Positions 4,321-21,498 of a stretch of DNA of 22,980 nucleotides are shown piece after piece. Where the stretch lies: the IMG/VR virus record IMGVR_UViG_3300042922_000462, positions 1 to 22,980 of that record. One strand, given 5' to 3'. The position numbers were made by a program, and so were the translations under genes. The notes under the pieces are model-generated. The model had not been told where the DNA came from. It did no database searches and saw nothing but the letters and a program-made list of their open reading frames with translations. Source of the stretch: a virus. Position 1 is the stretch's first letter; the number at the start of each line of letters is the position of its first letter.

Positions 4321-5180
4321 AAACCATCCTGAAATGGGCCGGCAGCAAGTCCGGCCTGATGCCTGAACTGATTAAGCACCTGCCCGCCGGTGATCGTCTG
4401 GTTGAGCCGTTTGCCGGTTCCTGTGCGGTCATGATGAATACGGATTACCCGGCTTATCTGGTTGCGGATGTTAATCCCGATCTGATTAACCTCTATCGCC
4501 AGGTTAAAGAGCATACGCGCCCGTTTATTGTCGTGGCGGCCTCGCTCTTCAATCAGAACAAAACTGAAGAGAGTTATTATAAGGTTCGCAATGACTTTAA
4601 TTTCACCGCGTCGCTGCCACTGCTGGAGCGTGCTGCACAATTCCTCTACCTGAACCGCCATGGCTATCGTGGCCTTTGCCGATATAACAAGCGCGGTGAA
4701 TTCAATAACCCTTACGGCAATTATAAAGAGCCATATTTCCCGCTGGCCGAAATCGAAGCGTTTGCCGTAAAGGCTCAGCGCGCGACTTTTGAATGTCTGG
4801 GGTACAGCGAAACCCTGAGCATGGTCCGTGCCGGTGATGTCGTGTACTGCGATCCGCCGTATCACGGCACATTCACCGCTTATCACACCGATGGGTTCAG
4901 CGACGATGATCAGCACTCGCTGGCCTGCATCCTGCTGGGTATCTCTGAGCGTAACCCGGTCATCGTTTCAAACAGCGACACGCTTTTTACCCGCAGCATC
5001 TACCGCGAATTTGACCTGACAAAAGTCACAGCTGCCCGCTCTGTTGGCGTAGCTGCCGGTGAAGGCAAGCGCGCACCTGAAATCATTGCAGTACGTAGCC
5101 CGAAGCCGTCACTGGTCTGGTCCGGTTTTGATATGGCGACGGACGCTGATTACTCAGCTGTAGCAGATGTGCAGCCATGA
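4317..5180 (+). CDS. Dam-type DNA adenine-N6 methyltransferase
   Basis: A 287-residue class D12 (alpha-type) adenine methylase. The expected motifs occur in order: KWAGSKS at residues 6-12, the S-adenosylmethionine site EPFAGSCAV at 30-38, FNNPYGNYK at about 129-137 (equivalent to FNxPYG in Dam), and catalytic DPPY at 179-182. The length is normal for Dam homologues, and GATC is the likely target by family. It lies in the early operon just ahead of replication, where phage Dam enzymes can protect DNA from restriction or influence replication and packaging timing. It overlaps both neighbours by four bases (ATGA). Confidence 0.93.
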   Translation: MKTILKWAGSKSGLMPELIKHLPAGDRLVEPFAGSCAVMMNTDYPAYLVADVNPDLINLYRQVKEHTRPFIVVAASLFNQNKTEESYYKVRNDFNFTASLPLLERAAQFLYLNRHGYRGLCRYNKRGEFNNPYGNYKEPYFPLAEIEAFAVKAQRATFECLGYSETLSMVRAGDVVYCDPPYHGTFTAYHTDGFSDDDQHSLACILLGISERNPVIVSNSDTLFTRSIYREFDLTKVTAARSVGVAAGEGKRAPEIIAVRSPKPSLVWSGFDMATDADYSAVADVQP

Positions 5181-5929
5181 TTCATTTTCACGGCGGCCCT
5201 ATCACTCCAGACTTATGCGCACTGAAGGCATGGAAAGGCAGACATGCGTTTATCAGTTTTGCAAATCCTGAGCAGCTGCCGCTTGCCAGTGAGGTTTGTC
5301 AGAGCTTCGCACTGGATAATGGTGCATACAGCTTCTGGACTAAAAATCGTGTTGTTAACTGGCAGGAATACTATGCCTTCGTTGCGCGCTGGTTAAATCA
5401 CCCGCGCTTCTCTTTCGCTTGTATACCCGACGTTATTGGCGGGACCAGCGAAGAAAACGATGCCCTTCTGGCTGAATGGCCACATGGAAAATTTGTAGGC
5501 TGTCCTGTGTGGCACATGTCTGAATCTGATGATCGATTCATCCGGCTTTGCCATGAATATCCGCGTGTCGCCATAGGTAGTATGGGCGAGTACGATGCAA
5601 AGCGGCCGCGCGCCTGCCGTGCAAAGTTGCGCGATCTGATCAGTAAGGTGGTCGATAAAAATGGATATCCGATAAGCAAGTTGCATGGCTTGAGGATGCT
5701 CAACAAAGATATTTTTATGCACGTTCCGCTGTCATCAGCTGACAGCACCAACGTCGCACGGAATATCGGTATCGATAAGGCCTGGAATGGCAGTGCTTAC
5801 GCCCCGGCCAGCAAAGAAACCAGAGCCGCAGTGCTCGTTGAGCGTATTGAGTCACTGAATAGTGCCAGTGCTCTTAACTACGACGCAGAGCGTGATGCCT
5901 TTGCGCCGCAGCTGGCTTTTGAAATATGA
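5177..5929 (+). CDS. TGT/DpdA-like TIM-barrel protein of unknown role
   Basis: A 250-residue protein that I judge to be a tRNA-guanine transglycosylase-like barrel. The motif order fits: ALDNGAY (D47) in the place of the TGT general base DSGG, IPDVIGG (D85), a [10 protein letters not shown]...[12 protein letters not shown] strand at 110-139 resembling the TGT GIVQG...yAIGGL region, then KLHGLRML at 168-175 and SADSTNVAR (D189) in the place of the nucleophilic Asp. The zinc-binding CxCxxC of queuosine TGT is absent, as would suit a shortened phage DpdA-type enzyme, which inserts 7-deazaguanine bases in DNA. The position between a DNA methylase and GpA, coupled by ATGA overlaps at both ends, suits DNA modification. 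The assignment is inference; no preQ0 synthesis genes are visible. Confidence 0.55.
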
Positions 5930-8705: not shown

Positions 8706-8945
8706 ATGCATATTGAAATTATGATTAACAAAGAGCCGAAAATCAGTGAAGACATTCTCAGCGCCCTTGAAGCTGAGCTTTACAGAAATTTCCTGCCGGT
8801 TTATCCCGATACAAGTATTCGCATCCGTAAGGGTAGTGCTAACGGAGTGGTCCTGAGCGGAGTCAGACAGGACGATGATAAAAAGAATGTTATGGATATT
8901 CTGCAGGCAGTATGGGAAGACGACAGCTGGCAGTATCAACACTGA
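8706..8945 (+). CDS. DinI-like protein (Tum C-terminal domain)
   Basis: A 79-residue protein of the DinI family: MHIEIMINKE at the start, SALEAELYRNF helix, PDTSIRIRKGSANGVVLSG strands around residues 36-55, and the acidic C-terminal helix ending in VWEDDSW. Host DinI modulates RecA filaments, while in 186 the same fold forms the C-terminal part of the Tum antirepressor that removes CI from its operators. It has its own ribosome site, GAGAGGGA, nine bases after the upstream stop, so reinitiation is likely. It shares the LexA-controlled transcript with the 62-residue protein. Confidence 0.85.
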   Translation: MHIEIMINKEPKISEDILSALEAELYRNFLPVYPDTSIRIRKGSANGVVLSGVRQDDDKKNVMDILQAVWEDDSWQYQH

Positions 8946-9642: not shown

Positions 9643-10911
9643 ATGATGAAATATGCAACAAATGCCGTTTTTGGTCTATCGCGTGACTTACCATTGAATT
9701 ATGTTGAGAGGCCGCGAGTAGATGGAAAACTAAAAACTGAGCTAGCAGCCAATAAACATATTGTTATCTATGGGAGTTCTAAGCAAGGCAAGACCTGTGT
9801 GCGTAAGCATTGCATGTCTTCCGACGACTACATTTTAGTACAGTGTTCGAATCGTTCAGATGCATCTGAGCTTAATGCTAGCATATTAAAACGCGCCGGA
9901 TTTGAAATTACTCAGTCCACCAAAAGAGGAATGACTGGGAAAAACAAAGTAGTTGCTTCTGTAAAAGCTACTGTGTTTGGTATAGGTGGTTCTGGCGGTG
10001 GAGAAACCGAGGATACTCATTCTCAAGAGATAACTACTACTCCTCTCGAAATCGATATTGATGATGTTAACGATGTAATAGCCGCATTGAAATCTATTAA
10101 TTTTGATAAGGTCATAGTGCTTGAAGATTTTCACTATATGCCTTTTGAGACACAGAGAGACTTTTCAATAGCATTGAAGGCTTTCCATGAAACGTCATCA
10201 ATAACCTTCATCATCGTTGGCGTTTGGTTAGAGGATAATAGATTAATTGTTTACAATGGTGATTTAACCGGTCGTATCATTTCCGTTAATGCCGACATTT
10301 GGTCAGATGACGAGCTAATGCAGGCCATTCAAACTGGAGGGACACTTTTAAACATTAATTTCACCGAAGAGTTCAAAAAACAAATTTTAGCAAATAGTCT
10401 TAAAAGTATTTATCTGGTTCAAGAAGCATGTAGGCGAGCGTGTGAGCTGACCAATATTTTGGAAACAAGCCCTCAAACCATTACAATTGGTGATGGTATT
10501 GATGGAAAACAATTAATCGCTGAGATAGTTTCCGATCAGTCTGCACGATACAATTCTTTTTTGGTGAATTTCTCAGAAGGATTTCAAGATACTGAGTTAA
10601 AGATGCACAAATGGATTCTTTATCCAGTGCTAACAGCAACTATTGAAGAATTGGAGCTAGGCTTAAGATATGGATATATTCGATCAACTTTACAAACAGA
10701 GCATCCGCGTGGTGAAGGGCTGAATTTGGGTAACCTGACTCAGTCACTTCAATCAACTGCTTCATTACAAATCAAAAAAAATATTATGCCAATTATTCTT
10801 GATTATGACCAGACGAACAGAAAATTGAATGTGGTTGATAAAGGATTTTTAATCTGGTTACAGCATATGGACGTTAAAGAAATTATGGACGAATTAGAAT
10901 TTGTAGATTAA
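9643..10911 (+). CDS. AT-rich cargo P-loop ATPase (AAA+/STAND-like)
   Basis: A 422-residue ATPase. Walker A is G44-SSKQ-G49-K50-T51. Walker B is KVIVLEDF at 156-163, with E161-D162. ITFIIVGVW at about 188-195 fits sensor 1, and LTGRI (R211) fits a distal arginine. A lid-like helical segment follows (SDDELMQAI...KSIYLVQEACRRAC), and a C-terminal part around 320-410, ending GFLIWLQ, has a winged-helix look. The architecture recalls Orc/Cdc6- or STAND-type ATPases. It is visibly AT-rich compared with the surrounding genes, has its own RBS (AAAGGAT) and lies alone between cos and Q, so it is likely a transferred accessory gene, perhaps anti-phage. No effector domain is obvious. The start may be ATG 9643 or 9646. 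Confidence 0.85.
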   Translation: MMKYATNAVFGLSRDLPLNYVERPRVDGKLKTELAANKHIVIYGSSKQGKTCVRKHCMSSDDYILVQCSNRSDASELNASILKRAGFEITQSTKRGMTGKNKVVASVKATVFGIGGSGGGETEDTHSQEITTTPLEIDIDDVNDVIAALKSINFDKVIVLEDFHYMPFETQRDFSIALKAFHETSSITFIIVGVWLEDNRLIVYNGDLTGRIISVNADIWSDDELMQAIQTGGTLLNINFTEEFKKQILANSLKSIYLVQEACRRACELTNILETSPQTITIGDGIDGKQLIAEIVSDQSARYNSFLVNFSEGFQDTELKMHKWILYPVLTATIEELELGLRYGYIRSTLQTEHPRGEGLNLGNLTQSLQSTASLQIKKNIMPIILDYDQTNRKLNVVDKGFLIWLQHMDVKEIMDELEFVD

Positions 10912-19045: not shown

Positions 19046-19439
19046 GTCGGTCCCTTACGTGGCTGATAACCCGGACCGCCTGCACCTGTTCGTTGACAGC
19101 GGTCAGTTGGTCGCCACATCCGCCGCGTCCCTGTCGTGGGAGTATCGCTACACACTAAACGTGGTGATCACCGACTTCACCGGCGACCAGAATCTACTGA
19201 TGGCCCCGGTGCTTTTGTGGCTGCGGGAAAACCAGCCCGACGCGCTGCAGAACAGCGAGGCGCGAGAAAAGCTGTTTTCGTTTGAGGTCGATATTCTTGC
19301 TAATGACCGCTGTGACATCAGCATGGACCTGAAGCTGACCGAACGCGTGATAGCGACAGTTGAGAACGGCAAGGCACATATCGAAGCGATGCCGGAGCCG
19401 GACGCGCCGGAGGAATTCTGGACGGTGAAGCATGGCTGA
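19008..19439 (+). CDS. R: Tail completion protein GpR
   Basis: A 143-residue protein of the P2 R family (155 in P2). Recognisable stretches are MNKPQSLRSALNKSVPYV, LHLFVDSGQLVATSAASLS, RYTLNVVITDFTGDQNLLMA and LWLRENQPDAL. R and S complete the head-proximal end of the tail. I chose ATG 19008 on family similarity; the frame is open back to 18858 but that part belongs to lysC. It ends eight bases inside S. Confidence 0.92.
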   Translation: MNKPQSLRSALNKSVPYVADNPDRLHLFVDSGQLVATSAASLSWEYRYTLNVVITDFTGDQNLLMAPVLLWLRENQPDALQNSEAREKLFSFEVDILANDRCDISMDLKLTERVIATVENGKAHIEAMPEPDAPEEFWTVKHG

Positions 19440-19875
19440 ACTGCATGAAGTGGATGCCTGGCTGGCTGCGCTGCTGGCACAGCTGGAACCGGCAGCCCGG
19501 AAAAAGATGCTGCGCGAGGTGGCGCGCGACGTGCGTCGCATTCAGCAGGCAAACATCACAGCACAACGTTCTCCGGACGGCACTGCATGGGAGCCGCGCC
19601 GCGTCAGCGCCCGCAGCAAAAATGGGCGCATCCGTCGCGGCATGTTCGCGAAGCTGAAAACTACAAAGTATCTGAAGGCAAAGACAGACGCAGACGCTGC
19701 TGAGATTGCCTTTATTCCTGGGGTGCAGAAGCTGGCCCGCGTTCACCACTACGGCCTGCGGGACCGGGTAAGCCGTCGCGGCCCGATGGTGAAATATGCA
19801 GAGCGCCCGCTTTTGGGAATTAATCCTCAGGTTAAGATCGAAGTTTTAAAAATTTTGATTAACTGGATTAATTGA
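19432..19875 (+). CDS. S: Tail completion protein GpS
   Basis: A 147-residue protein of the P2 S family (150 in P2). It begins MAELHEVDAWLAALLAQLEP, with the Arg-rich middle VARDVRRIQQANI, WEPRR, then RVHHYGLRDRVSR and VKYAERPLLG. Base composition changes sharply about 45 bases before the stop: the last 13 codons (KIEVLKILINWIN) are AT-rich and look like part of the adjacent cargo DNA, so the original C-terminus was probably replaced when the cassette was acquired. An intrinsic terminator follows 11 bases after the stop. Confidence 0.92.
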   Translation: MAELHEVDAWLAALLAQLEPAARKKMLREVARDVRRIQQANITAQRSPDGTAWEPRRVSARSKNGRIRRGMFAKLKTTKYLKAKTDADAAEIAFIPGVQKLARVHHYGLRDRVSRRGPMVKYAERPLLGINPQVKIEVLKILINWIN

Positions 19876-19886
19876 TGGTGTATTAT

Positions 19887-19913
19887 AAAAGGAATGAGTA
19901 AATCATTCCTTTT
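19887..19913. terminator. Bidirectional intrinsic terminator between S and the cargo cassette
   Basis: AAAAGGAATGA (19887-19897) and TCATTCCTTTT (19903-19913) are perfect 11-base complements with loop GTAAA, and each strand ends its stem in a T run. It lies between the stop of S and the stop of the convergent cassette, so it should separate the O-to-S late transcript from the cargo genes. Confidence 0.8.
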
Positions 19914-19937: not shown

Positions 19938-20315
19938 TTATTTAGTGGCTTTATTGTCAATCTCGTCAATATCATCATAGACATCATGTATTCTTGACTT
20001 GGCGCTAAAATCGGTATTTATTATTTTATCTAATTTCTCAGCAGTTGCGGGATCTAGTTTATTCTTGTCAATTTTAGGTGCATCTTTTTGCAACTTTTTG
20101 ACTTTACGAGAAACTGCAATTTCCACCACTTTACTATAAATTCTCCTCAATACCTCAGGCATCAAAAGAGAAATGAATATGATGAATTGATAGTAGATGG
20201 CTTCAGTTAACATTGAAATTAACTGGTTTTTATATTTAAATCCCAAAAAAAAGCTAATGATAATATTGGCAAGTAAAGATAAGAGCATTAAATGCTTTTC
20301 ATTATTTTTCTTCAT
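19938..20315 (-). CDS. Unknown cargo protein with two membrane segments
   Basis: A 125-residue protein counted from ATG 20315; an upstream TTG at 20324 is possible. The N-terminus is basic (MKKNNEKH), followed by two membrane segments (about residues 9-25 and 33-53) and a cytoplasmic-looking tail of 70 residues, first basic (RKVKKLQKD), then acidic (DVYDDIDEIDN). It is strongly AT-rich. It overlaps the upstream cassette gene by about 14 bases, so the two are likely translated together. I do not recognise the family. Its place between S and V equals the P2 site of orf30, a known position for AT-rich foreign genes, which suggests lysogenic conversion or a phage-exclusion role. Confidence 0.75.
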   Translation of the reverse strand: MKKNNEKHLMLLSLLANIIISFFLGFKYKNQLISMLTEAIYYQFIIFISLLMPEVLRRIYSKVVEIAVSRKVKKLQKDAPKIDKNKLDPATAEKLDKIINTDFSAKSRIHDVYDDIDEIDNKATK

Positions 20316-20829
20316 CAGATTCAATCCCGAGTTTCATTTCATTAATGAGCCCATCTAAAAAATCATCCTGATACTCTTGAAGTTCGGTAATTGCATCCAA
20401 AAGTGATATTATCATTCCAAGCAAGGTCATAACTAAATAATGATTACGGTTTTCTGATATATACTCAAGAAAGGATGAGCTGTCATACGTATAGGGGGCA
20501 TGATTGGCTGAGAAAATAAACGAGTCAGTTTCCTTACGATATGAAACCTTCGCATTTCCTTTGAGGTGAAAATTTACATTATTTACCGTCTCAAGCTTAT
20601 CTATGTACTTGTAAGATTTGATATTATTTGCTGACGGTCTAAACACTGCAGTCATTGTAAAATCTGACGGCATGGTATCCTCAATTATATCGGTATATTT
20701 TTGAGGGGTTATAAGGTAAGTAATTCCTTTTTTGTGGAAAGTGATAGAGTCTGAATCATTGTTTTCTTCAATCTCAACCCCTTTCAGTTTTTTCAAAACT
20801 GGCTTTATCTCTTCTAAGGTGAAATGCAT
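20302..20829 (-). CDS. Unknown cargo protein, first gene of a two-gene cassette
   Basis: A 175-residue acidic protein counted from ATG 20829 (ribosome site AGAGAA eight bases upstream); the frame is open from a TTG at 20853, but that would lie inside the promoter leader. The first 120 residues are predicted mixed alpha/beta (EEIKPVLKKLKGVEIEEN, ITYLITPQKY, VNFHLKGNAKVSYRKE, a domain-like layout). A hydrophobic helix NHYLVMTLLGMIISLLDAI (about 129-147) is long enough to bind a membrane or the partner protein. An acidic end follows. It is AT-rich, unlike the flanking tail genes. I do not recognise it. Confidence 0.75.
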   Translation of the reverse strand: MHFTLEEIKPVLKKLKGVEIEENNDSDSITFHKKGITYLITPQKYTDIIEDTMPSDFTMTAVFRPSANNIKSYKYIDKLETVNNVNFHLKGNAKVSYRKETDSFIFSANHAPYTYDSSSFLEYISENRNHYLVMTLLGMIISLLDAITELQEYQDDFLDGLINEMKLGIESDEEK

Positions 20830-20854
20830 ATAAATTTCTCTAATTACTATCAAT

Positions 20855-20918
20855 TGTATGATTGATTATACAAGTCTTGTCGCTGCGTTGGAAAGCGCAG
20901 ATATGTCAAACTTAAAAT
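20855..20918 (+). promoter_or_regulatory. Ogr box and late promoter of V
   Basis: TGT-N12-ACA is exact at 20855-20872 with extended symmetry (TTGT/ACAA). The box centre is near 20863.5. A -10-like TAAAAT is at 20913-20918 and another, TATGTC, at 20902-20907; these put the centre about 61 or 50 bases before the start of transcription, around the -55 usual for P2 late promoters. It corresponds to the P2 V promoter. Confidence 0.65.
20865..20894 (-). promoter_or_regulatory. Promoter of the two-gene cargo cassette
   Basis: On the minus strand a perfect TATAAT (20865-20870) is preceded by TTTCCA (20889-20894, 4 of 6 matches) with an 18-base spacer. Transcription would start near 20858, 30 bases before ATG 20829. 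The -10 lies inside the TGT-N12-ACA box for late gene V, so the two promoters compete for the same DNA. Confidence 0.6.
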
Positions 20919-20919
20919 C

Positions 20920-21498
20920 ATGGAAAGAAAATTAACTGAAATAATGCGCCTTATCACTAACCTGATCCGCACCGGCATTGTGTCCGAAGTGGACCCGGTG
21001 AACTGGCTGTGCCGGGTGAAAACGGGCGACCTTGAAACCAACTGGATTAACTGGCTCACCCTGCGCGCCGGTAGCACCCGCACATGGTGGAAGCCCACCG
21101 TCGGGGAACAGGTTGTGCTGCTGAGCCTGGGCGGCAATCTTGAAACCGCCTTTGCGCTGCCCGCCATTTATTCCGAAGCCTTCCCGCCGCCCGACTATTC
21201 AGAAGACGGCACCACCACCGTGTTTAAGGACGGTGGCTGGTTTCAGTACGAGCCGGAAACGGGCCAGTTGCTGATTAAGAACATTAAAAGTGTGCGCATT
21301 GAAGCGGCGGACGGCATTCAGCTGATCACCGATGCGCTGGGGATAGAGGCCAGCCAGACACGGATTAACGGTGACACCACGATGAACGGTGATGTGACTC
21401 ACGGCGGCGGTTCAATGAGTTCTAACGGCGTGATTGCTGATAAGCACTTACACAACAAAGTGAAGACCGGCACCGATATGTCAGGAGGCCCGCAATGA
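20920..21498 (+). CDS. V: Baseplate assembly (spike) protein GpV
   Basis: A 192-residue P2 V homologue (211 in P2), the trimeric membrane-piercing spike. It starts with LTEIMRLITNLIRTGIVSEV, the OB-type N-terminal domain (RAGSTRTWWKPTVGEQVVLL, TAFALPAIYS), followed by beta-helix repeats (IKSVRIEAADGIQLITD, TRINGDTTMNGDVTHGGG) and a His-bearing tip (ADKHLHNKV). ATG 20920 fits the P2 N-terminal length, while ATG 20944 (MRLITN) is the alternative if transcription starts at 20925. The 5' end just abuts the cargo region. Confidence 0.93.
   Translation: MERKLTEIMRLITNLIRTGIVSEVDPVNWLCRVKTGDLETNWINWLTLRAGSTRTWWKPTVGEQVVLLSLGGNLETAFALPAIYSEAFPPPDYSEDGTTTVFKDGGWFQYEPETGQLLIKNIKSVRIEAADGIQLITDALGIEASQTRINGDTTMNGDVTHGGGSMSSNGVIADKHLHNKVKTGTDMSGGPQ

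Follow-up and report, generated by a model that had tools for sequence, protein, structure and literature searches.

A two-gene module in the S–V interval of a P2-like prophage, a candidate anti-phage system conserved on three kinds of mobile element

The gene pair between S and V

The window, which is the whole stretch of 22,980 nucleotides that was analysed, is a P2-like prophage adjoining fldB, and the identity of this fldB to that of E. coli (73–74%) places the host among the enterobacteria but outside E. coli. Two overlapping genes on the minus strand, which are referred to here as gene 1 and gene 2 in their order of transcription, lie between the tail gene S and the baseplate gene V, together with several candidate signals.

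19432–19875, plus strand: S, tail gene, left flank of the cassette
19887–19913, no strand assigned: AT-rich hairpin of 11 bp separating S from the end of gene 2, which may terminate transcription in both directions (dG -11.9, z -6.3)
19938–20315, minus strand: gene 2, ATG start, 125 amino acids, intact ORF
20302–20315, minus strand: overlap of the gene 1 stop with the gene 2 start, 14 nt
20302–20829, minus strand: gene 1, ATG start, 175 amino acids, intact ORF
20855–20872, plus strand: TGT-N12-ACA, TGTATGATTGATTATACA, probable Ogr activator site of the V late promoter
20865–20894, minus strand: TTTCCA-18-TATAAT, candidate promoter of the cassette, proposed from its position only
20920–21498, plus strand: V, baseplate gene, right flank of the cassette

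The preliminary description of this DNA had proposed two overlapping, AT-rich minus-strand genes at this place, and both points were confirmed: the ATG starts give ORFs of 175 and 125 amino acids with a 14-nt overlap (the longer ORFs reported there begin at upstream TTG starts), and the GC content of the pair is 33%, compared with 53% for the window. The pair had also been given a promoter of its own and a bidirectional terminator, each of which held in part. The promoter (20894–20865) is plausible by its position, whereas the promoter scan returned no more sites than shuffled sequences did; the AT-rich 11-bp hairpin at 19887–19913 is real but does not pass the GC-rich terminator rule of the tool.

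Profile searches against PADLOC up to an E value of 5 gave no match for either protein, Pfam and NCBIfam gave no significant match, Foldseek against viral models gave no convincing one, and sequence searches of the PDB returned chance matches only. Elsewhere in the window, a DinI-like protein (PF06183, E 1.3e-19) is encoded at 8706–8945 on the plus strand, downstream of the replication gene A, and a 250-residue protein with no match in Pfam or PADLOC is encoded at 5177–5929 on the same strand, right after a Dam-like methylase ORF.

The S–V interval as a cargo slot

The interval was compared across 80 IMG/VR contigs encoding a close V, among which 79 loci, including the window, have both S and V. 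The distance from S to V is 82–86 bp in nine of the 79 loci, which are empty, and 371–2950 bp in the other 70, which carry cargo. This cargo has a GC content of mostly 0.31–0.40, is nearly always on the minus strand, and its 77 ORFs of at least 100 amino acids represent about 43 protein families. When 20 cargo proteins, picked by family size and length and not at random, were scanned one by one, 12 had PADLOC matches. The cargo includes a complete Septu pair (PtuA, E 1.5e-138; PtuB, E 5.1e-91), an AriA/AriB-like pair (PARIS), AbiU (E 2e-103), bSEFIR (E 5.8e-109) and the candidate defence families PDC-S31 and PDC-S49, with weak matches to ApeA and PD-T7-3, as well as the Pfam domains TIR, KAP NTPase, SacI endonuclease, cytosine methylase and OLD-like TOPRIM. 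The commonest cargo is a single gene of about 480–500 codons found in seven loci (L013, L021, L030, L044, L054, L057 and L072); its L013 copy has no PADLOC match and is a candidate unknown defence gene.

The comparison of P2-like loci that had been suggested in the preliminary description thus bears out its view of the interval as a hotspot for accessory genes, many of which belong to known defence systems. Its statement that P2 carries orf30 here agrees with the P2 record, in which orf30 lies in the same slot on the minus strand and is annotated as nonessential; orf30 is one gene of 261 codons, whereas the window has a two-gene pair. With the interval empty in nine P2-like relatives and its occupant in P2 annotated as nonessential, a need for the pair in tail assembly, which had been named as a possible objection, is unlikely, and a tail-assembly role was rejected. 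The C-terminal 17 or so residues of S (19820–19875 in the window) vary with the cargo in the S proteins of 76 loci, as if the end of S were exchanged together with the cassette; the conservation of S is 0.83–0.97 over most of the protein and 0.52–0.62 at its end.

Two other loci of P2 have been described as defence hotspots: A–Q (Rousset et al., PMC9122126) and fun, which was added by Vassallo et al. (PMC9519451). The accessible parts of these two papers do not name S–V, and no description of S–V as a defence hotspot was found in the openly accessible literature. In the A–Q hotspot of the window, a 422-residue AAA ATPase (9643–10911, plus strand) matches the candidate defence family PDC-S59 (E 8.4e-72), and the prophage therefore has cargo in two hotspots.

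The TGT-N12-ACA element is found at about -64 of V in 77 of the 79 loci and is the only common element upstream of V, since the remaining sequence up to the V start codon changes with the cargo. It has the form of the P2 late-activator (Ogr) site, and the P2 record has an annotated activator site for pV upstream of V. In the window, this site (20855–20872) contains the TATAAT proposed as the minus-strand -10 box of the cassette, and because the late-activator site thus overlaps the candidate promoter, the cassette may be off during the lytic cycle; the late activator would then silence it on induction. A comparable minus-strand -10 box inside the site is not generally seen in the other S–V loci.

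Homologues and products of the pair

Homologous pairs were found on other mobile elements. The P2-like contig L074 has one, likewise in its S–V interval, in which gene 2 is 34% identical and gene 1 is matched with a BLASTP E value of 0.001, and the contig L084 has the same cassette. Two lambdoid contigs, L088 and L093, also carry the pair, which in L093 has a DnaB-like helicase region on one side and a NinB-like gene on the other (named from a reading of the sequence, not from a database match), and it is further present in three 2.97-kb mobilizable E. coli plasmids with rop and mobA, with one more plasmid of that kind in the E. coli genome collection. The gene order is identical in all pairs, the two genes overlap by 11, 14 and 17 nt in the three homologues of the pair, and the pair is AT-rich on every element (31–35% GC). 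In all four pairs gene 1 encodes an acidic protein (pI 4.9 in the window, range 4.8–5.0) and gene 2 a basic one (pI 9.4, range 8.5–9.5), and such opposite charges are as expected for partners.

The gene 2 homologues are 24–34% identical, and no pairing leaves doubt about their homology (z 14–32 against local shuffles). Gene 1 has diverged much faster: its homology is clear for the window with L074 (z 7.2), moderate for the window with the plasmids and for the lambdoid contigs with the plasmids (z 3.2–3.4) and not above shuffles in other pairings, so that its orthology across all four pairs rests partly on position. Between the two lambdoid copies, seven of the differences in gene 1 are silent and four are not, and in gene 2 eight are silent and one is not. 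The pair is a conserved two-gene module on three kinds of mobile element. As both frames are kept in distant homologues, the idea that the genes are decayed remnants, an objection foreseen in the preliminary description, was rejected.

A DNA search with the pair as the query gave no match among E. coli genomes or phages, nor did tblastn with both proteins in phages, tblastn with the gene 1 protein in plasmids or scans of genome contigs with single proteins as the query. Pattern matches in L091 and L092 were attributed to chance, and two weak matches on Acidisarcina plasmids were dismissed, both lying under an IS110 transposase.

The gene 2 protein has hydrophobic stretches at residues 8–26 and 33–51 by hydropathy. 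The presence of two membrane segments, as originally proposed, was upheld by these stretches, and two of the three homologues also have two, the third having one above the threshold. A conserved FKYK-x11-YYQ motif surrounds the short loop, lying between and extending into the hydrophobic stretches, and is followed by a charged, positive, helical tail. The AlphaFold2 model (pLDDT 71) is helical throughout, and by the positive-inside rule the protein would form a membrane hairpin whose two termini face the cytoplasm. It falls into phrog_28117 (E 6.8e-22, residues 3–116 on positions 2–113 of the 118-position profile), which is also matched by the L074 and plasmid copies. PHROGs gives this family no function and no described partner, whereas here it adjoins gene 1 in every copy examined.

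The AlphaFold2 model of gene 1 has low confidence (pLDDT 52). In structural alignment, its best matches were E. coli YbjN (Z 8.5), AmyR (8.4) and DR_1245 (8.2), with Z values of 8.0–8.5 over 125–129 residues for this group, followed by many class I type III chaperones in succession. Structures of these two kinds fill nearly all of the top 33 places, although the pLDDT of the model is 52, the Z scores of up to 8.5 are middling and values near 8 can be common with this tool. It is the uniformity of the match list, which holds YbjN proteins and type III chaperones almost throughout, that favours a chaperone fold, and the model thus supports, without proving, the view that gene 1 is a soluble protein of the YbjN/class I type III chaperone fold (alpha-beta3-alpha-beta-alpha). 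Foldseek with the same model gave nothing below an E value of 0.06, the YbjN family PF10722 was absent from the Pfam matches of gene 1 up to an E value of 5, and hhalign of gene 1 against E. coli YbjN gave a probability of 0.1%. YbjN proteins have a common fold with little sequence conservation (PMC5398634), a trait that gene 1 shares; it differs from the family in having no Pfam YbjN match and in sitting in a mobile operon with a membrane partner.

The C-terminal hydrophobic helix noted previously in gene 1 is present at residues 132–150 (KD 1.92), but in three homologues the same helix scores 1.13–1.33, under the membrane threshold. It fits the terminal helix of a chaperone-like fold and is probably part of the soluble core, and a membrane-anchored gene 1 protein was rejected on the evidence of these homologues. 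The layout put forward in the preliminary description, a soluble or peripheral sensor with a membrane protein, accordingly stands as an architecture, with gene 1 apparently soluble and chaperone-fold-like and gene 2 apparently spanning the membrane twice, whereas the sensor role is presumptive.

Possible function of the pair

The simplest reading of a conserved, mobile pair of genes in a slot rich in defence systems is that it is itself one, and we put the probability at about one half that the pair is a mobile anti-phage module occupying the S–V slot, acting by prophage-encoded exclusion or abortive infection, with gene 1 as the sensor or regulator and gene 2 as the membrane effector. From context and architecture we infer a role in phage defence: the S–V slot of relatives carries known defence systems, and copies of the pair are found on three kinds of mobile element. 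The abortive-infection function suggested in the preliminary description is plausible. Against this, slot context is no proof, as other cargo could serve the host, and a maintenance module, too, would fit the context of a minimal plasmid of 2.97 kb.

The cassette would be expressed from the lysogen. Gene 1 would form an acidic, soluble dimer with the YbjN/type III chaperone fold and would bind its basic partner as well as a protein of the phage or a damaged one of the host. Gene 2 would lie in the inner membrane as a helical hairpin whose cytoplasmic tail is positively charged. On a change of state of gene 1, gene 2 would perturb the membrane and growth or phage development would stop. The physical complex of the two proteins, and the assignment of sensing to one and action to the other, are likewise presumed.

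The arrangement works like RexAB of phage lambda, which is also prophage-borne and has a soluble partner and a small membrane protein encoded by adjacent genes. The likeness does not extend to sequence, as the pair has no match to the RexA or RexB families in Pfam, NCBIfam or PADLOC; furthermore, RexA is a DNA-binding protein and RexB forms an ion channel (PMC12894663), whereas gene 2 has two hydrophobic segments. The TY-chaperones of ADP-ribose conflict systems (PMC9503650) show that the type III chaperone/YbjN fold does occur in conflict operons of bacteria, although these are ADP-ribose-centred and the accessible part of that paper describes none with a two-span membrane partner.

The same architecture can be read as toxin–antitoxin-like addiction, with gene 2 as a membrane toxin and gene 1 as a chaperone-type antitoxin, the benefit being retention of the element and any effect on phages secondary. 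An acidic first gene overlapping a small, basic, membrane-protein second gene fits this arrangement, as does the pair being the sole cargo of the minimal plasmid beside rop and mobA. We consider it unlikely, however, since neither protein matches a toxin–antitoxin family in PADLOC, Pfam, NCBIfam or PHROGs, an integrated prophage needs such a module less than a plasmid does, and the S–V slot is rich in defence systems. Superinfection exclusion, in which gene 2 acts at the inner membrane to stop related phages from adsorbing or their DNA from entering, gene 1 is its assembly chaperone and the cells survive, would suit a small two-span membrane protein, a partner from a fold family of protein-binding chaperones and the occurrence in temperate phages; it is distinctly unlikely because on the plasmids there is no resident phage for the pair to protect and the identified S–V cargo is mostly intracellular immunity rather than entry exclusion. 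A neutral or host-adaptive moron outside phage competition, for example in envelope stress, would agree with YbjN being a stress-associated protein (PMC5398634, PMC3181261), but is improbable given the slot context and the spread over several unrelated mobile elements. That gene 1 is a class I chaperone of type III secretion and gene 2 its secreted effector in lysogenic conversion is very improbable: the model does match such chaperones and an acidic, chaperone-sized gene does lie directly upstream of its partner, but YbjN proteins and not secretion chaperones rank first, gene 2 is hydrophobic from residue 8, leaving no room ahead of the membrane segment for the usual N-terminal signal and chaperone-binding stretch, and the pair is also found on small E. 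coli plasmids.

Within the anti-phage reading, a more specific proposal is tentative and on balance doubtful: that the pair represents a new two-gene class of defence, with a YbjN/type III chaperone-fold sensor or safety lock on a two-span membrane effector, in a third P2-like defence hotspot, shut off on prophage induction through the overlap of its promoter with the late-activator site. If the anti-phage reading is true, a type of defence has been missed by current catalogues, phrog_28117 would gain a function and a partner, and a chaperone fold would be used to gate a membrane effector. Whatever the function of the pair, the S–V interval of P2-like phages houses a large stock of defence genes and unknown genes, and with about 43 families in 79 loci, several of them without a PADLOC match, it is a concentrated place in which to seek new systems.
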